33,129 nt of DNA, from the IMG/VR virus record IMGVR_UViG_3300006071_000050, positions 1-33,129 of that record; one strand, given 5' to 3'. Positions 1,066 to 25,189 of this stretch are shown here, piece after piece (the stretch's first letter is position 1; the number at the start of each line of letters is the position of its first letter). The notes under the pieces are model-generated. The model searched no databases. It saw only the letters and a list, made by a program, of their open reading frames with translations, and was not told the origin of the DNA. The position numbers were made by a program, and so were the translations under genes. This stretch comes from a virus.

Positions 1066-1199
1066 TTACTCGCGTGTGTACAGTATGCCGTATGAGATAG
1101 GGGACATTCTCAATTCTCTCCTATGTACCCGAAGGCTGTAGCAGTAGTTGAAAGATACTATCAGTGATTTAATTTGAGACATGGATCACGGCGAGTAAA
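1066..1199 (+). ncRNA. Structured intergenic element B
   Basis: ACTCGC plus GTG (1068-1076) pairs with CAC plus GCGAGT (1187-1196) with one bulged base. Within it GGGACAT can pair with ATGTACCC. It follows element A directly and ends just before the late promoter of the HNH gene at 1258. No known RNA family is recognised. Confidence 0.4.
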
Positions 1200-1220
1200 T
1201 ACTAAATTGGTAGACTAAAT

Positions 1221-1228
1221 GATAAATA
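1221..1228 (+). promoter_or_regulatory. T4-type late promoter box GATAAATA
   Basis: The GATAAATA box lies 37 nt before the ATG of the HNH gene. By T4 geometry RNA would start near 1234. AATTGG (1205-1210) and CCAATT (1239-1244) flank the box, the right arm abutting the AAGGAA ribosome site; only read-through RNA would contain both arms. Confidence 0.65.
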
Positions 1229-1257
1229 GTTGTGTCACCCAATTAAGGAACACTACT

Positions 1258-1920
1258 ATGAGTAAAAGAGGGCCCAAGAAAGCAGAAGCAATAATAACTA
1301 CTGAATTATGTAGTTATGGATGTGGTTTGGTTGCAAACTTTAGAAACAAGTCAGGTAAACTGATGTGTGGTCCTGGAGCCGCTTCCTGCTCTGAGATTAA
1401 AAAGAAAAACTCCGCTGCCGGAAAAGCAGCATATGATTCCGGGCAACGACCTTCTGCGAAAGAGGCTTATGAATCGTTATCTGATACTGCCAAAAATAAC
1501 ATGAATTGGAATGCAGGAAAACGATATGCAGATTTCTCACATAATGGAAAGGGTCAGCACAAAAGCGCACTAATTGCTGAGAGAGGATATTGTTGTGAGG
1601 GTTGTGGACTCTCTGAGTGGAGAGGAAAACCGATTGTTCTTGAATTGGAGCATAAAAACGGCGACCGCAAAGATAACACAAAGGATAACCTTGAATTACT
1701 ATGCCCTAACTGTCACGCACAGACTCCTACTTGGAGAAAGGGTTGGGTAAAAGGGTTCAAAACAAGTAGATACACCGATGAGCAGCTAATAGCTGCTATC
1801 AAGGATTCAGAAAACTTGAATCAGGTATTAGAAAAATTAGATTTACGATACGGATCAGTTAAGAAGATAGTAAATCTAATATCAGAACATAATATTTCTT
1901 TTAAGAGGAAATTAAACTAA
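1258..1920 (+). CDS. HNH homing endonuclease with N-terminal zinc-finger-like domain
   Basis: Predicted free-standing HNH endonuclease (220 aa) that would cut DNA, probably spreading its own gene within the tRNA array. Residues 18-45 form a Cys-rich module (CSYGCG, then two more Cys), also present in the products at 6262 and 9472. The nuclease core spans about residues 112-160: Cys pairs CEGC and CPNC with the HNH signature LEHKNGD...N...CPNCH (His132, His153). The C-terminal 60 residues are Lys-rich and may bind DNA. ATG 1258 is chosen because AAGGAA lies 7 nt upstream; an in-frame start at 1219 lies before the late transcription start. The gene ends 11 nt before tRNA-Leu(TAG). Confidence 0.9.
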   Translation: MSKRGPKKAEAIITTELCSYGCGLVANFRNKSGKLMCGPGAASCSEIKKKNSAAGKAAYDSGQRPSAKEAYESLSDTAKNNMNWNAGKRYADFSHNGKGQHKSALIAERGYCCEGCGLSEWRGKPIVLELEHKNGDRKDNTKDNLELLCPNCHAQTPTWRKGWVKGFKTSRYTDEQLIAAIKDSENLNQVLEKLDLRYGSVKKIVNLISEHNISFKRKLN

Positions 1921-1931
1921 ATAAAATCAAC

Positions 1932-2009
1932 GGGGCTATGGGCAAATTGGTAAAGTCGTTACGTTTAGGCCGTAAAGTTCTCCCGGTTCGAGTCCGGGTA
2001 GCCCCACCA
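1932..2009 (+). tRNA. tRNA-Leu-like(TAG) with short variable loop
   Basis: Acceptor GGGGCTA/TAGCCCC, anticodon stem TTACG/CGTAA with loop TTTAGGC (anticodon TAG), T arm CCCGG/CCGGG, CCA encoded. The D arm resembles Leu tRNAs, with a three-pair GGC/GTC stem. The variable loop is only 6 nt, whereas bacterial Leu tRNAs carry a long arm, so its charging identity is uncertain. Confidence 0.85.
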
Positions 2010-2020
2010 AGTTTCACGAA

Positions 2021-2120
2021 GGTGGTATGTAGGACAGGTGAAAATGTCCGAGGACCGGGATTCCCTCTACCCGCACCAATCATAACGTCGATGAGGGTTC
2101 GAGTCCCTTCATCCGTACCA
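2021..2120 (+). pseudogene. tRNA remnants (two decayed tRNA pieces)
   Basis: The region 2093-2120 is a good tRNA 3' half: T stem GAGGG/CCCTT with loop TTCGAGT, then CATCCGT, A and CCA. It is preceded by CATAAC, like the 3' side of a Met anticodon loop, but no partner acceptor strand is found. Upstream, 2021-2079 holds an anticodon-arm-like hairpin (GGACA/TGTCC) and a tail ending GCACCA without a proper T arm. Both look like leftovers of tRNA loss or recombination. Confidence 0.5.
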
Positions 2121-3067: not shown

Positions 3068-3634
3068 ATGGCAGTTCTAGCCCTTGACATTTCAGGTGTC
3101 CCGCGCACGTGGGTCTCCCACGACGAAGCGATTGCATATCACGCAAAAGACCTGGTAGCATGGAGCATGGGTGATGTGATCGCACGTTACCGAGGCGGTG
3201 TCCGAAAGGATGGCACTCGCAGCTATATTGAAACTCCTAGCATCATCGCTATTAAGGGTCATGGTTTTGACTTCAAGAAGCACAATAAGGTTGTGTTGAC
3301 GAATGGTACACTGTTCGCTCGTGACCGACACATTTGCGCTTATTGCGGTAATCATTTCACAAGTCGTAATGACTTGAGCCGTGATCACATTGTTCCTCGG
3401 TTCCACGGTGGTTTGGATGAATGGACTAACGTAGTTACTGCTTGCATTGACTGCAACCAAAAGAAGGGTTGTAAGTCGCTTAAGGAAGCTCGTATGGAAC
3501 TATTGTATATCCCTTACGAACCCAATCACTTTGAAAACTTGATTCTCCAGAATCGTAGCATTCTTGCTGACCAGATGGAGTATCTAATGTCAGGTGTTCC
3601 GAAGCACAGTCGTATTATGTTAAAGGCAGCGTAG
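3068..3634 (+). CDS. HNH endonuclease (188 aa)
   Basis: Predicted HNH nuclease of the single-domain kind common in bacteria and phages. The core spans residues 90-130: CAYC, then SRDHIVPRFHGG (Asp106, His107), Asn121 and CIDCNQKKG with the last Cys pair. The N-terminal 80 residues lack recognisable motifs. ATG 3068 follows ACAGGAG with 5 nt spacing. Unlike most endonucleases of this island it has a clear sigma70 promoter (2978) and no stringent late box, only CTAAATAC near 3041, so it may be made early. It is not closely similar to its HNH neighbours and was probably acquired separately. Confidence 0.9.
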   Translation: MAVLALDISGVPRTWVSHDEAIAYHAKDLVAWSMGDVIARYRGGVRKDGTRSYIETPSIIAIKGHGFDFKKHNKVVLTNGTLFARDRHICAYCGNHFTSRNDLSRDHIVPRFHGGLDEWTNVVTACIDCNQKKGCKSLKEARMELLYIPYEPNHFENLILQNRSILADQMEYLMSGVPKHSRIMLKAA

Positions 3635-3827: not shown

Positions 3828-4379
3828 ATGAGTTATAGATCAGAAAGCGTAAAGCGTTGGAGAGAAAACACCAAAGATAAAATGGTAGAAGCAATGGGCA
3901 GCAAATGTCAATGTTGCGGATATAATAAGCATACTGCTGCGCTGGCGTTTCATCACATTGATCCTAGTCAGAAAGACATTGGATTTGGTGGTGCTAGAGC
4001 AAACCCAAAGGCATGGCCTAAGATTGTAAATGAACTTAGAAAGTGTATACTGGTATGTCACAATTGCCATAGTGAGATTCATGCAGGCGTTAGAGAGCTT
4101 CCGGAAACGTATGAAGTGTTTAATGAAGCATTTGCTGATTTTAAAAAAGTGTCAGAATATGATGCTTGTCCTATCTGCAATGATAAAAAACCTATTGCTC
4201 AAAAGTTTTGTAGTCATATATGCGCCCAAAAGAACAGTAGAAAAGTTGACTGGGACAGCATTGATTTGTTAGACTTGCTTGATAAACACGGGATTGGGGA
4301 ACTAGAAAATATTCTAGGTGTTTCTAATGCTGCTATATACAAGAGAAGAAACAAGTTATTAAAGAACACGCCGGCTTAG
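3828..4379 (+). CDS. HNH endonuclease whose stop lies in tRNA-Thr
   Basis: Predicted free-standing HNH homing endonuclease (183 aa). The nuclease core is at residues 27-85: CQCC, FHHIDP (His42, His43), CILVCHNCHSEIH with the second Cys pair and the final His. A second Cys cluster (CPIC...FCSHIC, about 115-133) may be a zinc-binding target-recognition module, and the C-terminal 40 residues look like a helix-turn-helix (LDLLDKHGIGELENILGVSN). The last codons and the TAG stop (4377-4379) lie inside tRNA-Thr(TGT): the stop is the TAG of its TTAGCTC. Expression appears limited to late RNA by the repeat at 3774-3822. Confidence 0.9.
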   Translation: MSYRSESVKRWRENTKDKMVEAMGSKCQCCGYNKHTAALAFHHIDPSQKDIGFGGARANPKAWPKIVNELRKCILVCHNCHSEIHAGVRELPETYEVFNEAFADFKKVSEYDACPICNDKKPIAQKFCSHICAQKNSRKVDWDSIDLLDLLDKHGIGELENILGVSNAAIYKRRNKLLKNTPA

Positions 4380-4445
4380 CTCAGGTGGTAGAGCGCGTCA
4401 CTTGTAATGACGATGCCAGGGGTTCGACTCCTCTAGCCGGCACCA
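4370..4445 (+). tRNA. tRNA-Thr(TGT)
   Basis: Acceptor GCCGGCT/AGCCGGC, anticodon stem CGTCA/TGACG with loop CTTGTAA, T arm AGGGG/CCTCT, CCA encoded. Its first 10 nt are also the end of the upstream HNH gene. Confidence 0.96.
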
Positions 4446-4603: not shown

Positions 4604-5173
4604 ATGGGAAAGCGCACTTTAATACACGATATGCCTTGGCAAGAAGTACAAGCGTTGTATGATGCTGGTATGTCGCAGCGTGACCTGCAGGGAAAGTTTA
4701 GAATAGCATTCAAAACTTTTCAGAAAGCAAAACGACTTGGGTTGTTTGTTCCAAGAGACTTGTCTTCTGCGTGTAAACTAAGGGCAGCACTAAAGCCCGG
4801 CGACTACACCGAAGTCAGAAGTCAACGTCCGGAACTCGTAAACTATAGAGCAGACTGTTCATTCAAGTTTAATGTGTTTGACTTTCCAGATGAGTTTGAT
4901 ATTGTACTAGTTGAACAGCACGGTTGGTATAAAGCTACAAATCGTGGTAATAATTTAACAGGTGTCAGTAGAGACCATATTGTGAGTGTGAGATACGGAT
5001 TTGATAACGGAATTGATCCGTCAATAATCTCTCACCCTGCTAACTGTCAACTATTACAGCATGGCACAAATGTGTCAAAAGGTAAAAAATGTGACTTGAC
5101 AATTGAAGAACTTTTTGTTAAGATCAGTAAATGGAATGATAAGTATAATAAAGTTTCTGGGGACGTAAGCTAA
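4604..5173 (+). CDS. HNH-like endonuclease ending inside tRNA-Ala
   Basis: Predicted homing-type nuclease (189 aa). Residues 10-50 look like a helix-turn-helix (MPWQEVQALYDAGMSQRDL...), and a C-terminal HNH-like core carries SRDHIVSVRYGF, then HPANCQLLQ and N..KGKK, a variant I associate with phage HNH proteins; it lacks the paired Cys of the zinc-bound type. There is no Shine-Dalgarno before ATG 4604: the late box at 4591 sits so that transcription would begin at the ATG. The last five codons and the TAA stop (5171-5173) overlap tRNA-Ala by 15 nt. The HNH call rests on motif spacing only. Confidence 0.75.
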   Translation: MGKRTLIHDMPWQEVQALYDAGMSQRDLQGKFRIAFKTFQKAKRLGLFVPRDLSSACKLRAALKPGDYTEVRSQRPELVNYRADCSFKFNVFDFPDEFDIVLVEQHGWYKATNRGNNLTGVSRDHIVSVRYGFDNGIDPSIISHPANCQLLQHGTNVSKGKKCDLTIEELFVKISKWNDKYNKVSGDVS

Positions 5174-5232
5174 CGGGAAACTGGCGCCTTTGCAAGGCGC
5201 ACTTGAGGGTTCGATTCCCTCCGTCTCCACCA
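5159..5232 (+). tRNA. tRNA-Ala(TGC)
   Basis: Acceptor GGGGACG/CGTCTCC, anticodon stem GCGCC/GGCGC with loop TTTGCAA, T arm GAGGG/CCCTC, A plus CCA encoded. The D stem (AGCT/AACT) has one mismatch. Its first 15 nt are coding sequence of the upstream endonuclease gene, which may have shaped the odd D arm. Confidence 0.85.
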
Positions 5233-5506: not shown

Positions 5507-5899
5507 TTGGCTCAAGTTAATAAGCACATCCTTGTTACAGGATATCTAGAAGAAGCTCCTACTGCGGAGTATGTTACGTTTCTTGAAGACTGGTTCAATC
5601 GTTTGGTTGAAGCAGTTGATATGAAGGTGTTAATTGATCCTATCTGTGTTTGGTGTGACGATGAAGGAAACGAAGGCGTAACGGGGATGGTTGGTATTAC
5701 TACCAGTCACTCATCTATTCATTTTTGGTCAGGTGAACCAAGTTTTTATAAGTTTGATCTATATTCATGCAAGGATTTCGCAATTGAAGCTGTAGCAGAT
5801 ATGCTCAAGGAACTTGGAACCTACAAGTTCACCTACACTGTAGTTGATCGCACAGATGATGAACATCCTGTGATTGACAGTGGTGTTGTCACTTTCTAA
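5507..5899 (+). CDS. SpeD-like pyruvoyl-dependent decarboxylase homologue
   Basis: Resembles the small prokaryotic S-adenosylmethionine decarboxylase fold (130 aa). Known SpeD proteins self-cleave at a Ser that becomes a pyruvoyl group. The segment TTSHSSIHFW aligns with the family ESHLTIHTWPE: Ser67 fits the pyruvoyl Ser, His72 the processing His, and Cys88 in DLYSCKDF the catalytic Cys. The residue before Ser67 is Thr rather than Glu, and the PE after Trp is replaced, so substrate and even self-cleavage are uncertain; some SpeD relatives are reported to decarboxylate ornithine or arginine. The start appears to be TTG 5507, with AAAGG about 9 nt upstream; the ATG at 5502 is out of frame and soon stops. 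It stands alone behind a terminator and a late promoter. Confidence 0.7.
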   Translation: MAQVNKHILVTGYLEEAPTAEYVTFLEDWFNRLVEAVDMKVLIDPICVWCDDEGNEGVTGMVGITTSHSSIHFWSGEPSFYKFDLYSCKDFAIEAVADMLKELGTYKFTYTVVDRTDDEHPVIDSGVVTF

Positions 5900-6129: not shown

Positions 6130-6158
6130 TTGACATTACTCTAACAATGTCGTATAAA
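6130..6158 (+). promoter_or_regulatory. Sigma70-type promoter
   Basis: TTGACA (6130-6135), 17-bp spacer, TATAAA (6153-6158), about 100 nt before the HNH gene at 6262. Its RNA would include both arms of the weak repeat around the late promoter at 6237. Confidence 0.7.
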
Positions 6159-6236
6159 GAGATATACAGAGTGAGAAACACATTCTGGTCTTTGACAATG
6201 TTGGTTAAGTTTTAAGTGAAAAGTCTGTCTACCAGG

Positions 6237-6244
6237 TATAAATA
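6237..6244 (+). promoter_or_regulatory. Late promoter TATAAATA
   Basis: Exact T4 late consensus; the predicted start near 6250 is just before AGGAG (6251-6255). GTCT-A-CC (6227-6233) or AGTCT (6222-6226) can pair with the region holding AGGAG in longer RNAs only. The pairing is short, so masking is tentative here. Confidence 0.7.
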
Positions 6245-6261
6245 CATTATAGGAGACTATT

Positions 6262-6882
6262 ATGTATTGTGAGTATGGGTGTGGACAGACTTCTCACTAT
6301 CTTCTTAAGAATGGCAAAAACTGCTGTTCTAAGAGACCGGCAGGCTGCCCGGAGATTAAAAGCAAAAACTCGCTTGCAACCAAACGGGTATATGCAACCG
6401 GTGCTAGACCTTCTGCGAAAGAAGCATATTCATCAATGAGCGAGGATGCTAAAACTCGCATGAATTGGAATAAGGATAAGTATCCTAACACTGTATTTGA
6501 ATACGGTGGAACTGGTAGTCATAAAGCTGTTCTCATCCAAGAACGCGGGCACAGGTGCGAAGCATGTGGATTAGAAGAATGGCAAGGTCATAAGGTTCCT
6601 CTAGAGTTAGAACATATTGATGGTGACAATAAGAACAACATTAAAGAAAATCTCAAACTACTATGCTGCAACTGCCACGCATTGACCGATACCTGGAGAG
6701 GTAGAAATATCAACTCAGGAAAGGTAAAAGTAAGTGACGATGAGCTATTGACAGCCCTTGAGGAATGTAGTAGTATAAGAAAAGCATTACAGAAAGTAGG
6801 TCTTACCCCAAAGGGAGGGAACTACGCTAGAGCTAACAAATTACGGGCGCGTGGCGAAATTGGTCATACGCAGGAGACTTAA
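6262..6882 (+). CDS. HNH homing endonuclease whose stop is the tRNA-Leu anticodon
   Basis: 206-aa paralogue of the product of 1258-1920: same Cys-rich N-terminus (CEYGCG...CCSKRPAGC), same linker block (PSAKEAY, MNWN) and same nuclease core (CEAC, LELEHIDGDNKNN, CCNCHALTDTW; His118, Asn130, His139). AGGAG precedes ATG 6262 by 6 nt. The final 13 codons run through the acceptor, D arm and 5' anticodon stem of tRNA-Leu(TAA), and the stop codon 6880-6882 coincides exactly with the tRNA anticodon. The C-terminal tail is thus dictated by the tRNA sequence, as if the gene was inserted so that its frame runs into the tRNA. Confidence 0.92.
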   Translation: MYCEYGCGQTSHYLLKNGKNCCSKRPAGCPEIKSKNSLATKRVYATGARPSAKEAYSSMSEDAKTRMNWNKDKYPNTVFEYGGTGSHKAVLIQERGHRCEACGLEEWQGHKVPLELEHIDGDNKNNIKENLKLLCCNCHALTDTWRGRNINSGKVKVSDDELLTALEECSSIRKALQKVGLTPKGGNYARANKLRARGEIGHTQET

Positions 6883-6931
6883 AATCTCCCGGATTTATTC
6901 CGTGTCGGTTCGAGTCCGACCGCGCCCACCA
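6845..6931 (+). tRNA. tRNA-Leu(TAA)
   Basis: Class II tRNA: acceptor GGGCGCG/CGCGCCC, anticodon stem GGAGA/TCTCC with loop CTTAAAA, long variable arm, T arm GTCGG/CCGAC, CCA encoded. Bases 6845-6882 are also HNH coding sequence. Confidence 0.96.
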
Positions 6932-6939
6932 AGTTTAGC

Positions 6940-7015
6940 GGCCCCTTCGTCTAGAGGCCTAGGACACTGCCCTTTCACGGCAACGACACGGGTTCGAATC
7001 CCGTAGGGGTCACCA
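6940..7015 (+). tRNA. tRNA-Glu(TTC)
   Basis: Acceptor GGCCCCT/AGGGGTC, anticodon loop CTTTCAC in a stem TGCC/GGCA with an outer C-A mismatch, T arm ACGGG/CCCGT, CCA encoded. Confidence 0.93.
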
Positions 7016-7637: not shown

Positions 7638-7713
7638 GGTCCCGTAGCTCAATTGGTAGAGCTGGCCGCTCATAACGGCTAGGTTGTCGGATCGTGCCCG
7701 GCCGGGACTACCA
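7638..7713 (+). tRNA. tRNA-Met(CAT), elongator-type
   Basis: Acceptor GGTCCCG/CGGGACT, D stem GCTC/GAGC, anticodon stem GGCCG/CGGCT with loop CTCATAA, CCA encoded. The T loop starts ATCG instead of TTCG, as in tRNA-Asp at 58. A lysidine-modified Ile tRNA cannot be excluded. Its last 6 nt overlap the end of the antisense HNH gene. Confidence 0.88.
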
Positions 7714-8145
7714 CCAACGATTGCCCTTGCTACGATTCTCTTTGATAGTGAGATATTGCAGGTTATCTTCATGGTGCTTCCCTCCCTTTGAAAGGGGCAC
7801 AATATGATCAACTTCATGACCTTCGGGACAGTTGCGATATATCTCTTTTATCTTTGCAAGATTAGCGCCGGGGTCAAGAACTTTGTATTGTCTTGCGCGA
7901 TATCTGCTTTGACGCATTGCATTTGATTTTTTGAGGTGCTCCTCACTAACTCTAAGTGCATCTGAGCTACACTGCATAGAGCAATACTTCTTTGATGTAG
8001 TAATAGTTCCGCAATGAGCGCAAGGATGAGGAAACACCTTTCTTTCTACTCTGCAAACTCCGCGATTATTATGTTTAGCAGAGCAGGATTTTGAACAGAA
8101 TCTAGGATTTGACGTTTCTTTATCACAGTGAATGCATTTGTTCAT
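7708..8145 (-). CDS. HNH endonuclease on the opposite strand
   Basis: 145-aa HNH protein and the only reverse-strand gene in the tRNA island. The N-terminus has two Cys-rich zinc-ribbon-like modules (CIHC...FCSKSC and CAHC...YCSMQC). The nuclease core near the C-terminus reads CPEGHEVDHIVPLSKGG...HEDNLQYL...ENRSKGNRW. The TAG stop is read from 7710-7708, inside the CCA end of tRNA-Met, so the gene and tRNA converge and overlap by 6 nt. No Shine-Dalgarno is seen; a late box (AATAAATA on this strand, 8158-8151) ends 6 nt before the ATG, as in the leaderless genes on the other strand. Confidence 0.88.
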   Translation of the reverse strand: MNKCIHCDKETSNPRFCSKSCSAKHNNRGVCRVERKVFPHPCAHCGTITTSKKYCSMQCSSDALRVSEEHLKKSNAMRQSRYRARQYKVLDPGANLAKIKEIYRNCPEGHEVDHIVPLSKGGKHHEDNLQYLTIKENRSKGNRWW

Positions 8146-9008: not shown

Positions 9009-9413
9009 ATGTCGTATGTACTGTTTCTTGATGATGTTAGAAACCCTGACGATGTAACTTGGGCTGAATTCCCTCGCTTTGAGACTACATTCACTGTTCG
9101 CAACTATGAAGGATTTGTCAATCAAATCTCTCGCGGAGGAATGCCAGCTTTCGTTTGTTTTGATCATGATCTAGCTGACGAACATTATATAGCTATGCTC
9201 AAAGAAAACGAAAGTGATCCTGTCAAACAGCTTGAAACTATCGTAGACTATGGTACTGAAAAGACTGGTTACGATTGTGCCAAGTGGCTCGTTGACTATT
9301 GCAGTGAGAAAGGTTTCAAGTTCCCTAAGTACATTGTTCACTCAATGAACCCTGCTGGAAAAGAACGTATCACTGGATACATTGAAAATGCGAGAAAACA
9401 TTTGGATATATGA
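9009..9413 (+). CDS. Cyclic-phosphate-processing receiver-domain protein
   Basis: 134-aa protein with the compact receiver-like fold that Aravind and colleagues linked to RNA repair. [11 protein letters not shown] (residues 5-15) carries the acidic pair, [10 protein letters not shown] (about 47-57) the Asp-His-Asp motif, [12 protein letters not shown] the conserved Gly-Asp region, and [13 protein letters not shown] the final HS-N-G element. In this family the receiver phosphorylation site is replaced by these His/Asp residues, thought to act on cyclic phosphate ends of RNA or nucleotides. Its place amid tRNA genes fits tRNA or RNA-end repair after host nuclease attack, but that is inference. 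ATG 9009 has only a weak GAAAG upstream. Confidence 0.7.
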
Positions 9414-9442: not shown

Positions 9443-9477
9443 GATAAATAGATCATACAAGGAAATAAAGTATGATC
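9443..9477 (+). promoter_or_regulatory. Late promoter with start-codon-masking repeat
   Basis: GATAAATA (9443-9450) is followed by GATCATAC (9451-9458), perfectly complementary to GTATGATC (9470-9477), which contains the ATG at 9472; the loop holds the AAGGAA ribosome site. The predicted late start near 9456 removes most of the left arm. Confidence 0.75.
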
Positions 9478-10170
9478 TGTGATTATGGTTGTGGTAGCAA
9501 AGCTATAAAAACGCTTAAGAACAGTAAAAACTGTTGTAGCAACTCACCAAGCTCTTGTCCTGCAATGAAGGCCAAGAATAGCGATAGAGTCAAAGCTAGG
9601 CGGGCTATAGCAGGTGACTCTTATTGGAAGAATGGGCACCCTAAGGGCAATACTAGCGGAAAGGCGTTGTTGGGTAAAACTTACGATGCATTGTACGGCA
9701 ATGAAGCACTTGCCCAACGCTTGTCCCGATCATTGGGTAATAAAGGAAAAGGCTCATACAAGAACTTTACTCCTGAACAGAAACTAGAACACGCTTCTCG
9801 TGCTAGAGAAAACATTCTTGCAAGATATGAATCCGGATGGATGCCAAAGGCAGGTAGGTGCAAGAAGATTCAGTATGTATCTCCGATCGCAGGCACTGTC
9901 TGGGTAGACGGCACCTGGGAGTTAGCGGTTGCTAAATGGCTAGACCTTAAAGGATATATGTGGAAACGAAATACTACACGATTCCCCTATACTAATCTTA
10001 AAGGTAACTTGAGTCATTACACTCCGGATTTCTACGTTGAAGAAATGGGAGGGTATTTAGAGATTAAGGGTTATGAAACTGCGCTAGATCGCTGTAAGTG
10101 GTCGCAGTTCTCTGAACCTCTCGTAGTCTGGAAGAAAAAAGATTTAGTAGAGAATAGCATACTAGAGTAA
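9472..10170 (+). CDS. Homing-type endonuclease: HNH-family N-terminus with PD-(D/E)XK-like nuclease
   Basis: 232-aa protein with the same Cys-rich N-terminus as the HNH proteins at 1258 and 6262 (CDYGCG...NCCSNSPSSCP, MKAKNS), but without the HNH core. Residues 60-130 contain basic repeats of the kind found in modular DNA-binding regions of homing enzymes. The C-terminal 100 residues hold PDFYVEE followed by YLEIKGY, matching the PD...(D/E)xK active site, preceded by a TWELAVAKWLD helix and NTTRFPY. This looks like a domain swap: one targeting module joined to different nucleases. Late-only expression is suggested by the repeat at 9451-9477. It ends 12 nt before tRNA-Ser(GCT). Confidence 0.82.
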   Translation: MICDYGCGSKAIKTLKNSKNCCSNSPSSCPAMKAKNSDRVKARRAIAGDSYWKNGHPKGNTSGKALLGKTYDALYGNEALAQRLSRSLGNKGKGSYKNFTPEQKLEHASRARENILARYESGWMPKAGRCKKIQYVSPIAGTVWVDGTWELAVAKWLDLKGYMWKRNTTRFPYTNLKGNLSHYTPDFYVEEMGGYLEIKGYETALDRCKWSQFSEPLVVWKKKDLVENSILE

Positions 10171-10182
10171 ATATATCTATAA

Positions 10183-10270
10183 GGAAGGTGGGCAGGCTGG
10201 TAATGCAGCAGATTGCTAATCTGTACAACCCGCAAGGGTTGAGTGGGTTCGATTCCCACACCTTCCGCCA
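10183..10270 (+). tRNA. tRNA-Ser(GCT)
   Basis: Class II tRNA: acceptor GGAAGGT/ACCTTCC, anticodon loop TTGCTAA, long variable arm with an AACCC/GGGTT hairpin, discriminator G and CCA encoded. Confidence 0.95.
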
Positions 10271-11374: not shown

Positions 11375-11523
11375 ATTCATGCTATAACAGATGCATATGC
11401 TATAGCGAGAGAGTACACCTGACGCTGCAGGGTTGCCGGCGTGTATGATAATAAAAAGGTGGGGCAAGAGTCCTCAGGTTTACCCAGTGATTTTATGGCA
11501 AATTATTGATAGTGGAGAATGTT
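11375..11523 (+). other. Intergenic stretch before the PTH2 gene
   Basis: It contains the near repeat TGCTATAACAG/TGCTATAGCG and a short ACGC/GCGT hairpin around a CTGCAG. No promoter box of either class and no further gene is recognised. Confidence 0.25.
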
Positions 11524-11901
11524 ATGAAATACAAAATGTACGCTATCTTTGCCAAAGAGAGCGTTGCAAAGATGAAAGGTATTCGAGGTAAGATGTGTAC
11601 TCAAGCAGGCCATGCTTATCTACATGCTTATTGGGATTCTTTGAATCCTGAGAAGTGCTTTATTGATCAAGTACGAGCATACATGAATAGCGACCGTGCT
11701 TACAAGATTACTCTTATCGTAGATACTGTTGATGAGCTTAAGGCTCTCCAGGAAAAGTATAAGGATGTCTGCGGTACGAGTCTTGTAACTGACGCTGGAT
11801 TCACTGTGTTCAATGAACCAACTACGACTTGTCTTGGTCTTGGTCCTATCAGTGAAGACAACATCGGTGACGATTTGAAAGCGTTGAAGACTTTTACATA
11901 A
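11524..11901 (+). CDS. pth2: Peptidyl-tRNA hydrolase, PTH2 family
   Basis: 126-aa protein matching the archaeal/eukaryotic-type Pth2 fold, which releases peptides from peptidyl-tRNA. The order of motifs fits: MKYKMYAIFAKES (first strand), GIRGKMCTQAGHAYLHAY (the GKxxxQxxHA motif), YKITLIVDTVDELKAL, then TSLVTDAGFTVF (DAGxT) and CLGLGP (the GxGP loop). Length is typical. ATG 11524 is chosen because GGAG lies 5 nt upstream; a TTG at 11506 has none. It lies between tRNA-Lys(CTT) and tRNA-Met, ending 3 nt before the latter. Together with the tRNAs it may keep the tRNA pool usable when ribosomes stall during infection, which is inference. Confidence 0.85.
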   Translation: MKYKMYAIFAKESVAKMKGIRGKMCTQAGHAYLHAYWDSLNPEKCFIDQVRAYMNSDRAYKITLIVDTVDELKALQEKYKDVCGTSLVTDAGFTVFNEPTTTCLGLGPISEDNIGDDLKALKTFT

Positions 11902-12933: not shown

Positions 12934-13818
12934 ATCAAGACAAGAGATTGTCTTAGCTCTTTGAAAATTGAATATAAGAATTGGGGGCATAGCCTCATTA
13001 GGGTAAGCACAGTAATGTGCCTAAAGCAAGGTTTCCTATAAACTTGCGCTCGTAAGAGTCCATCTATGCAAGCCTGAACTAGCCGAAAGGCCCGTCCGTA
13101 GAAAGGCGGTAGGTAGTAAGTCAGGTATAGCGTCCCGAAGGGGATAGTCTACAGAGCCAAATCGGTGAGTAGATAAGAGGGTTGGCGCTCTCACGATGTA
13201 CAGCCAAACTGACGAATATCGAAGGTTAACAGGTAGTTATTGAGTCTGACCTCGCAAGGAAAGGCAAGATAGCAATACAAACGAAGAAGGAGGACACTTG
13301 CTCCGGATCCGTGAAGTATGGTTGAGTAGCCCGCAAGGCAAAAGACATGAGGTGTGTTGTATTCTGTATCTAACAAGGTATGGAGCAACTGGAGCAGCAC
13401 ATCTTGGTAGGTTCGCAAATAACTCAGCGGTAGAGTAATCCACTTCTAATGGATCGGCTTAGGTTCAAATCCTAATTTGATAAACAAAAGCGAAAGACTG
13501 CTCCGGTACTATGTGAAAGGTGCTTAATACCTCACTCGCAAGGGAATGAGGTTCAGGGAAGCCCGCAAGGCCGAACTGATTGATCGGAAAGAAAGCGTAA
13601 CGGTTTAGCGACTGTGAATAGCCCGCAAGGCTAACGAAAGATAGATGGTCGAATAGCATAGTGCGACGAGTCAAACGCCAGACTCTCAAAAAGGCAGCAT
13701 TGAGTGATACTAGATGACTGTAACAAGCTCTAGTGGATAACGGTAGAACGGTCCTCGCAAGGGATTCGGTAATGACCAAAGTCACTCGTCTAAAGCTGTA
13801 ATCTCAGGCTGTACAAAA
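12934..13818 (+). ncRNA. Giant ornate non-coding RNA (GOLLD/ROOL-like candidate)
   Basis: About 885 nt without a credible coding frame, behind a perfect promoter. It has six CGCAAGG hairpin caps (13253, 13332, 13537, 13564, 13624, 13756) and other tetraloop hairpins (GCC-GAAA-GGC; CCC-GAAG-GGG). Long-range helices include TGTACAGCC/GGCTGTACA (13197-13205/13807-13815), then GACGA/TCGTC (13211-13215/13786-13790); TTGCTCC/GGAGCAA (13298-13304/13382-13388); and GGAGCAG/CTGCTCC (13391-13397/13498-13504), which encloses a tRNA-like domain. Local stems include CCTGA/TCAGG and GCAAG/CTTGC. Giant ornate RNAs of the GOLLD and ROOL classes are known from phages near tRNA genes and can form RNA-only multimers; class membership was not tested here. 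The 3' end near 13818 is set by the last helix and the following late promoter. Confidence 0.7.
13413..13482 (+). ncRNA. tRNA-Arg(TCT)-like domain inside the giant RNA
   Basis: D stem ACTC/GAGT, anticodon stem ATCCA/TGGAT with loop CTTCTAA and T arm TTAGG/CCTAA with loop TTCAAAT are all perfect. The acceptor has only CAAA/TTTG plus one outer pair, and AACA replaces CCA. It is enclosed by the GGAGCAG/CTGCTCC helix. It seems kept for shape rather than charging, although a released, end-repaired tRNA is conceivable. Confidence 0.65.
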
Positions 13819-24318: not shown

Positions 24319-24345
24319 AAAGCCCCCTTAATCGGGGGCTTTTTT
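24319..24345 (+). terminator. Bidirectional rho-independent terminator
   Basis: AGCCCCC/GGGGGCT (24321-24327/24334-24340) with TTTTT after it on this strand and a T run on the other strand. It separates convergent operons. Confidence 0.92.
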
Positions 24346-25189
24346 ATGGGTTGTTTACTGATTTGATGACCCAGAAGTCACTACTCATGCTAGTGTTCTG
24401 AATAACCTGATATGGCATATAGAAGTACCCGTGATCGCCCCAGTTCGTTCCCCAGCTATTCTTGACGATGAAACGCTGGGTACTATTGTTGTATCCAACT
24501 AGAAGCACTGCGTGGCCTCCTAGGACGCTCTCTGAGCGTGTGTTGGGGTAGGGCATGTTAGCAGTAGTATGCCACCAATTGCCACTCTCAAAACTGCTGT
24601 AAACAGTGAATCCGATAACAACAGGATATCCATTTGCAAGCGCATTGATACATGCATTGAAGTCGGTAGCACGTTCGTACAGTGTAACCTTACGTCTAGC
24701 AGCATCAGACACAGCAGCACTACTAGGAGCTGTTCTAAACTTATTTATATTGTAAGGCCATAGAGTTTCTAACGGTGCACCATAAGTGTAGCAAGCTCTG
24801 ATGCCGTCTCTAATATATGCACCGCTATCATAGTTAACCGTGCCCTCTAATAATCTTTCATAGTAGTAGATGAATAATCTACTGACTTCGGTGTTCTTAC
24901 CGTTCTTCTTGTCAATAATTTCTATCGCTTCTGCAATAGCATTACCTGTGCAGCTTCCTAGATTACCCTGATCTTCAACTGGAGTAGGATACAATGTTCT
25001 AAGATCAACAGTTGATGGAGTAGTAGATAGAGTTACTGGTTGATAGATATAGTCTCGTGAGTCAGGCTTGTCAGCTACCCAGTGATATTTAGGAATACTA
25101 AAATCAGATTTAAAAGCAGTAGCAACTATGGGCTTATGGCTTAGACCAGGATCTTGTGTAACATCAATAACTGTGCGTGGATCTCTCAT
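24344..25189 (-). CDS. Papain-family (C1) cysteine peptidase
   Basis: 281 aa. The catalytic domain starts after about 60 residues: DQGNLGSCTGNA gives the oxyanion Gln and the catalytic Cys, GGHAVLLVGY the catalytic His, and KNSWGTNWGDHGYFYMP the Asn, all in papain order. The N-terminal stretch (YHWVADKPDSRDYIYQP) is typical of bacterial and viral C1 proteins that lack a classical inhibitory propeptide. No signal peptide. As the last gene of the tail-fibre operon it might process fibres or host surface proteins, which is inference. AAGGAA precedes the ATG. It ends at the bidirectional terminator. Confidence 0.9.
   Translation of the reverse strand: MRDPRTVIDVTQDPGLSHKPIVATAFKSDFSIPKYHWVADKPDSRDYIYQPVTLSTTPSTVDLRTLYPTPVEDQGNLGSCTGNAIAEAIEIIDKKNGKNTEVSRLFIYYYERLLEGTVNYDSGAYIRDGIRACYTYGAPLETLWPYNINKFRTAPSSAAVSDAARRKVTLYERATDFNACINALANGYPVVIGFTVYSSFESGNWWHTTANMPYPNTRSESVLGGHAVLLVGYNNSTQRFIVKNSWGTNWGDHGYFYMPYQVIQNTSMSSDFWVIKSVNNP

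Follow-up and report, generated by a model that had tools for sequence, protein, structure and literature searches.

The window, i.e., the whole stretch of 33,129 bp that was analysed (record IMGVR_UViG_3300006071_000050), belongs to a freshwater jumbo-type phage and carries an array of approx. 30 tRNA genes together with one GOLLD RNA. In this array an HNH endonuclease ORF, preceded by a Shine-Dalgarno-like motif, runs into the tRNA-Leu(UAA) gene that follows it (Table 1), with the overlap coding for residues 195–206 of the endonuclease and its stop codon. An earlier note on this DNA had claimed that the stop codon is exactly the anticodon of this tRNA, that the endonuclease frame crosses the acceptor, D arm and anticodon stem, and that the same bases serve as tRNA and as protein terminus. 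All three claims agree with the ORF and tRNA calls, as ARAGORN places the beginning of the anticodon TAA at tRNA position 36, which is 6880. The tRNA scores 56.9 bits with the Rfam tRNA model and folds as a cloverleaf (-35.3 kcal/mol). Since the second IMG/VR contig, L001, carries a junction identical letter for letter, the junction is no frameshift error; sequencing error is also ruled out by an orthologue (L111) and by parallels in cultured phages. The promoter in Table 1 was missed by the consensus scan, which accepts only T as the sixth base of the -10 hexamer.

Table 1. Coordinates of the features in the window and of the tRNA-Leu(UAA) introns in related loci.
Feature	Position	Strand	Remarks
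Cassette, HNH + tRNA-Leu	6199..6932	+	734 nt identical to L001/L018
sigma70-like promoter	6130..6158	+	TTGACA, 17 nt, TATAAA; read from sequence
Segment absent from empty-site relatives	6216..6844	+	compared with L026 and L027 leaders
Shine-Dalgarno-like AGGAGA	6251..6256	+	precedes ATG of HNH ORF 6262-6882
HNH endonuclease ORF	6262..6882	+	206 aa, ATG start, TAA stop
tRNA-Leu(UAA)	6845..6931	+	ARAGORN; 3' CCA encoded
HNH/tRNA-Leu overlap	6845..6882	+	acceptor strand, D arm, anticodon stem 5' strand, anticodon
TAA, HNH stop codon and tRNA-Leu anticodon	6880..6882	+	
Second cassette	1189..2032	+	HNH 1219-1920 and tRNA-Leu(UAG) 1932-2009; 844 nt identical to L018
HNH ORF 3828-4379 with tRNA-Thr(UGU) 4370-4445	3828..4445	+	TAG stop is tRNA positions 8-10
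ORF 4604-5173 with tRNA-Ala(UGC) 5159-5232	4604..5232	+	TAA stop is tRNA positions 13-15; probable nuclease, family assignment weak
Endonuclease ORF 9472-10170 with tRNA-Ser(GCU) 10183-10270	9472..10270	+	12 nt before tRNA; PD-(D/E)XK-like motif, read by eye
Group I introns, anticodon loop of tRNA-Leu(UAA)	L026 6650-6837; L027 1549-1742; L035 2377-2570; L008 4521-4698; L111 1512-1710		RF00028

In a profile search the ORF matched phrog_14736 (HNH endonuclease, E 1.7e-30) over residues 93–195, the match ending at the residue whose codon straddles the tRNA boundary. The protein consists of a Cys-rich N-terminal segment, an HNH core (approx. residues 93–152) and a helix-turn-helix-like C-terminal part. 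Residues C99, C102, H118, N130, C135 and C138 are invariant in the family alignment and the total length is typical for the family; the sequence of the tRNA-encoded tail is not conserved. In the predicted structure (mean pLDDT 81) the last helix runs on through residues 186–204. Pfam at a threshold of 0.01 gave no match for this protein, Foldseek gave only weak HNH matches (E above 0.05), and a profile scan of genome contigs gave solely actinobacterial matches confined to the HNH core. The sole match in the PDB profile search, cytochrome c552, was judged spurious (Cys/His motifs). With the phrog_14736 match and the invariant residues, the protein has the catalytic domain of a free-standing HNH homing endonuclease, and the ORF probably encodes a selfish DNA-cutting (homing) nuclease. 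The closest orthologue after L001 is that of L111 (69% identity; the stretch is identical in L112–L114), and a dN of 0.24 with saturated dS in this comparison indicates that the gene is under purifying selection.

Insertion site and exchange with the tRNA

Relatives of the locus were retrieved through the neighbouring ORF 5507. This ORF (5507–5899) is itself conserved between tRNA-Val and tRNA-Trp in the relatives, and matches a phage S-adenosylmethionine decarboxylase family (phrog_3125, 3.6e-11).

The relatives keep the tRNA order, mostly without the HNH gene, which is present in the window and L001; as in homing endonucleases, the gene is optional, intergenic and outside any intron or intein in otherwise collinear genomes. 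The segment that the empty-site relatives lack begins after AAGTTTTAA (6207–6215) and ends at the tRNA 5' end. In their leader, a TTGACA-17-TATAAA promoter is followed by TTCTTTGACATTGTTGG, which leads straight into tRNA-Leu, and therefore the HNH gene sits between the promoter and the tRNA. The earlier note had proposed HNH-free relatives as a check on whether the tRNA boundary is the insertion site, and the comparison bears this out: the edge lies within 3 nt of the tRNA 5' boundary in L026 (where tRNA-Leu starts 3 nt past the point of divergence from the window), and in BP32 compared with T4 the right junction of a related HNH gene is the exact 5' end of an unchanged tRNA-Leu(UAA).

The HNH protein of BP32 (Tequatrovirus), annotated as 'F-TflIV', is homologous to that of the window (42% over 130 residues of the HNH and helix-turn-helix part), and like it is encoded directly 5' of tRNA-Leu(UAA). 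Unlike it, the BP32 protein starts with a different N-terminus and carries an additional repeat at its C-terminal end, its ORF stops 6 nt before the tRNA, and the gene took the place of the tRNA-Gln present in T4. Across unrelated phages, relatives of the HNH gene immediately precede Leu tRNAs, namely UAA in the window, L001, L111 and BP32, UAG in LR756508 and CAA in L006, L007 and L010. Homologues ending upstream of the tRNA, by which the earlier note would have had its reading refuted, thus occur in distant relatives (BP32, and LR756508 with 2 nt), but the closest orthologue, in L111, enters tRNA-Leu(UAA) at the same point of the protein, right behind NKL, and ends with a TGA in the D arm.

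The window is 77–98% alike to L018 and L001 over shared segments, while the longest identical runs between the window and L018 are the two HNH + tRNA-Leu pairs (844 and 734 nt, the next being 170 nt). At the 6199–6932 cassette, identity collapses 1 nt past tRNA-Leu. Such identical tracts between diverged flanks correspond to the horizontal spread with flanking DNA that is characteristic of homing endonucleases. F25 and IME341, which belong to different genera, have tRNA-Ile2, an endonuclease and tRNA-Arg in common at 97%, ending 2 nt past tRNA-Arg. From these comparisons, it appears that nuclease and tRNA are passed from phage to phage as a single cassette.

The linked tRNAs are also the more diverged ones: median best identity to clade orthologues was 82% for endonuclease-linked tRNAs and 96% for unlinked tRNAs (p 0.002 in a within-isoacceptor permutation, which ignores phylogeny and in which the window and L018 are not independent). 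The exact tRNA-Leu allele of the window was found in L001 only, therefore no HNH-free copy of it is known. However, tRNA exchange is not obligatory, because T4 and BP32 have identical tRNA-Leu genes without and with the HNH gene, respectively. In L027, an endonuclease of the 9472 type stands beside a resident-type tRNA-Ser. The linked Leu tRNAs are often short and without the long variable arm, as is the case for UAG in the window and for UAA in L036 and L037. These short Leu tRNAs (77–78 nt) adjoining endonuclease genes are located at 1932–2009 (78 nt) in the window, 8853–8929 in L036 and 7476–7552 in L037.

Endonuclease ORFs that end inside tRNA genes

Of 97 non-redundant endonuclease ORFs that were recognised by iterative profiles and are followed by a tRNA, 26 run into it, compared with 9 of the 314 other ORFs (Fisher p~3e-11), across 111 loci which were partly retrieved via these nucleases and which also supplied the control ORFs. 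When the ORFs were clustered by similarity and the count was limited to 60 nt, the numbers were 20/39 for endonucleases and 11/72 for others (p~1e-4), and this test is conservative because some control ORFs resemble GIY-YIG homing enzymes. The overlap of endonuclease and tRNA genes is far from chance. Its depth ranges from 2 to 45 nt across endonuclease ORFs, and the stop position varies as well.

The window itself contains two further overlaps, at tRNA-Thr and tRNA-Ala (Table 1). The endonuclease ORF at 9472–10170 ends before its tRNA-Ser(GCU); its relatives in L096, L098 and L101 run 37 nt into that tRNA. Among cultured phages, coliphages included, the endonuclease of Salmonella phage Se_EM4 has its stop codon at positions 8–10 of tRNA-Met, and the PD-(D/E)XK-like 'endonuclease I' ORF of the T-even phages F25, HEMP5, IME341 and EcWhh-1 extends 38 nt into tRNA-Arg, where U36-A37-A38 is its stop codon. 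The latter resembles the window cassette in that endonuclease and tRNA are common across genera, with the common stretch ending at the tRNA 3' end, but its nuclease fold is unrelated and its tRNA is a different one.

The Sinorhizobium phages phiM7 and phiM12 were rejected as a same-strand parallel, since their HNH gene overlaps the tRNA in antisense. An antisense overlap resembling theirs is present in the window, where the 3' end of a minus-strand HNH gene (7708–8145) overlaps the 3' end of tRNA-Met (7638–7713) by 6 nt. Another gene of the window, HNH_5 at 3068–3634, occupies one and the same location, in front of tRNA-Asn, in almost all relatives, with 76–84% identity (69% in L037); in contrast to the other nucleases, it appears to be fixed in this phage group.

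The position of the stop codon on the anticodon follows from the tRNA. In this tRNA-Leu(UAA), two forward frames are stop-free and the third holds the anticodon TAA only; therefore, any ORF that ends inside it has to stop there (1 in 3 on entering). Over 782 distinct tRNAs, the first stop lies in the anticodon loop in 11% of frames and exactly on the anticodon in 1.3%. Among the 26 distinct tRNA-overlapping endonuclease ORFs, the stop falls in the anticodon loop in 9 cases, against an expectation of 6.7 for a frame drawn at random from those that stop, and so an enrichment of endonuclease stops at the anticodon was rejected. The other overlapping ORFs stop at U8-A9-G10, in the D arm or at U36-A37-A38. 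The exact anticodon position of the HNH stop is an accident of the reading frame and not special. A literature search of partial coverage gave no report of endonuclease ORFs that end in tRNA anticodons.

Proposed mechanism and rival explanations

We consider it likely that the ORF is a free-standing HNH homing endonuclease that was inserted at the tRNA-Leu 5' edge and is exchanged together with the tRNA. The gene would have been placed between the promoter of tRNA-Leu(UAA) and the tRNA itself, and with no stop codon before the tRNA, the ribosome would read the tRNA 5' half as the last 12 codons and stop at the anticodon. The nuclease presumably recognises HNH-free tRNA-Leu alleles, near the leader/tRNA junction or in the anticodon arm, and may be copied in with the linked tRNA by gene conversion. 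The overlap would be a recurrent by-product of insertion at a tRNA boundary, tolerated because the last residues of the family vary. To go further, the element may cut the resident tRNA-Leu of rivals and bring along a tRNA-Leu with the same anticodon, fused at its 3' end, which is uncuttable because it is diverged or intron-protected, so that attack and replacement happen in one step; this extension we put forward only tentatively.

On the shared transcript, RNase P cleavage at 6844/6845 would remove the HNH stop codon from the message, and therefore tRNA maturation and nuclease synthesis should compete. From this a regulatory switch could be proposed, in which RNase P turns the HNH message into a nonstop one, so that nuclease can be produced only as long as the tRNA is processed slowly, e.g., at an early stage of infection, and the ribosome for its part holds up the folding of the tRNA. 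Some conflict is indeed required by the geometry of the overlap, given the established biochemistry of RNase P; hairpins and RNA processing are known to down-regulate homing endonucleases in phages (PMC2988022); and the overlap is kept in the 69% identical L111 orthologue. However, there is free variation in how deep the overlap reaches and where the ORF stops, and in distant relatives the ORF ends short of the tRNA. This is the pattern that tolerance would give rather than a tuned switch, which seems rather unlikely to us.

The locus of L111 raises the possibility of collaborative homing, in which the HNH nuclease cuts near the intron site in the tRNA-Leu(UAA) anticodon, while the group I intron seen in relatives shields the tRNA and moves along with the HNH gene. 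The tRNA-Leu(UAA) behind the orthologous HNH gene of L111 is indeed interrupted by a group I intron (RF00028), located between U34 and A35 like the introns of L026, L027, L035 and L008. We take this to be the site familiar from cyanobacteria, although the introns described here are in phage tRNA genes, unlike the cyanobacterial ones. The layout of L111 is also that of F-CphI at psbA of cyanophage S-PM2, where a free-standing endonuclease is encoded beside a gene with a group I intron (PMC6083498). The tRNA-Leu of the window is, however, uninterrupted, and the tRNA-Leu(UAA) introns of L026, L027, L035 and L008 have no HNH gene of the 6262 type directly upstream, so that collaborative homing is doubtful for the window.

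It seems very unlikely that the overlap shields the nuclease since its loss would harm the tRNA. There is a precedent in T4, where promoters of essential genes inside endonuclease genes favour endonuclease retention (PMC2988022, section 9), and with the tRNA promoter upstream of the HNH gene some deletions would remove that promoter. Yet the ORF and the tRNA have no more than the final 12 codons in common, which leaves 94% of the ORF clear of the tRNA, and a deletion ending at 6844 does not touch the tRNA. Intact tRNAs are common in genomes without the nuclease: HNH-free relatives keep the tRNA, and this includes alleles that are nuclease-linked elsewhere. L018 and L026 have identical tRNA-Phe genes, linked to an endonuclease in L026 but not in L018, the tRNA-Ala allele of the window recurs identically in L001, L026 and L027 without the endonuclease, and closely similar copies of the Thr and short Leu(UAG) types occur without a nuclease. 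The suggestion of the earlier note that loss of the nuclease is tied to damage of the tRNA is, on these comparisons, not supported.

Least probable of all is decay, by which the ORF lost its stop through a deletion and the tail is a meaningless read-through of a dying gene; the unconserved tail would suit it, but the low dN against saturated dS extends over the whole gene, the catalytic residues are intact, and the NKL junction and family-typical length are kept.

Known systems and other features of tRNA arrays

By analogy, SegB and F-CphI are the nearest tested systems to the window HNH. SegB is known to cut within tRNA genes and to drive the inheritance or amplification of the region that holds them (PMC13096335). 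In T4 and T6, as in the window, its gene lies between tRNA genes on the same strand, but SegB is a GIY-YIG enzyme and the window protein, of the HNH type, has no such domain; T4 segB ends 5 nt before tRNA-Arg, while the window HNH ends inside tRNA-Leu. The tRNA-Arg behind segB in T4 is identical to that of F25, in which the 'endonuclease I' ORF occupies the place of segB. As for F-CphI, the difference is that the neighbour of the window HNH is a tRNA without an intron, an intron in the tRNA next to the HNH gene being present at the orthologous L111 locus only.

Phage tRNA arrays are battlegrounds of tRNA-cutting defences and SegB-driven tRNA amplification. If fused endonuclease-tRNA cassettes move, the tRNA identity of phages would be partly set by selfish nucleases and not by codon need. 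The HNH/tRNA overlap also offers a clean test case for the competition of translation and RNase P on one transcript. In addition, annotation pipelines that disallow the overlap of ORFs and tRNAs miscall one of the two; the records of F25 and IME341 list no tRNA-Arg at the endonuclease ORF.

Several other features were observed in the window. The GOLLD RNA (13349–13810, 207.5 bits) contains tRNA-Arg(UCU) at 13412–13485. Within the tRNA array are a peptidyl-tRNA hydrolase PTH2 (11506–11901, Pfam 4.8e-15), 3 nt before tRNA-Met, and a cyclic-phosphate processing receiver domain (cREC; 9009–9413, Pfam 1.9e-18). A papain-family cysteine peptidase (24344–25189, minus strand, Pfam 1.7e-17) adjoins large repetitive structural-looking proteins.

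According to a review, group I introns of phages are mostly situated in protein genes (PMC3984707); besides the tRNA-Leu(UAA) introns, one is located in a tRNA-Asn gene (L062 6566–6767). Inserts of approx. 44–62 nt interrupt tRNA anticodon loops in L019 (7118–7179), L098 (3078–3127) and L160 (1963–2084, minus strand), and phiM7/phiM12 provide a case from cultured phages. The inserts of L098 and phiM7 fold as an acceptor-like stem, a hairpin and a T-arm-like hairpin, i.e., a tRNA inside a tRNA. Finally, a tRNA-like sequence flanked by an inverted repeat of approx. 20 bp (GACTTGTTACGCTATTACTGCA...TGCAGTAATAGCGTAACAAGT) is present in L023 at about 6805–6960, and similar stretches occur in the tRNA arrays of L019, L026 and L027.
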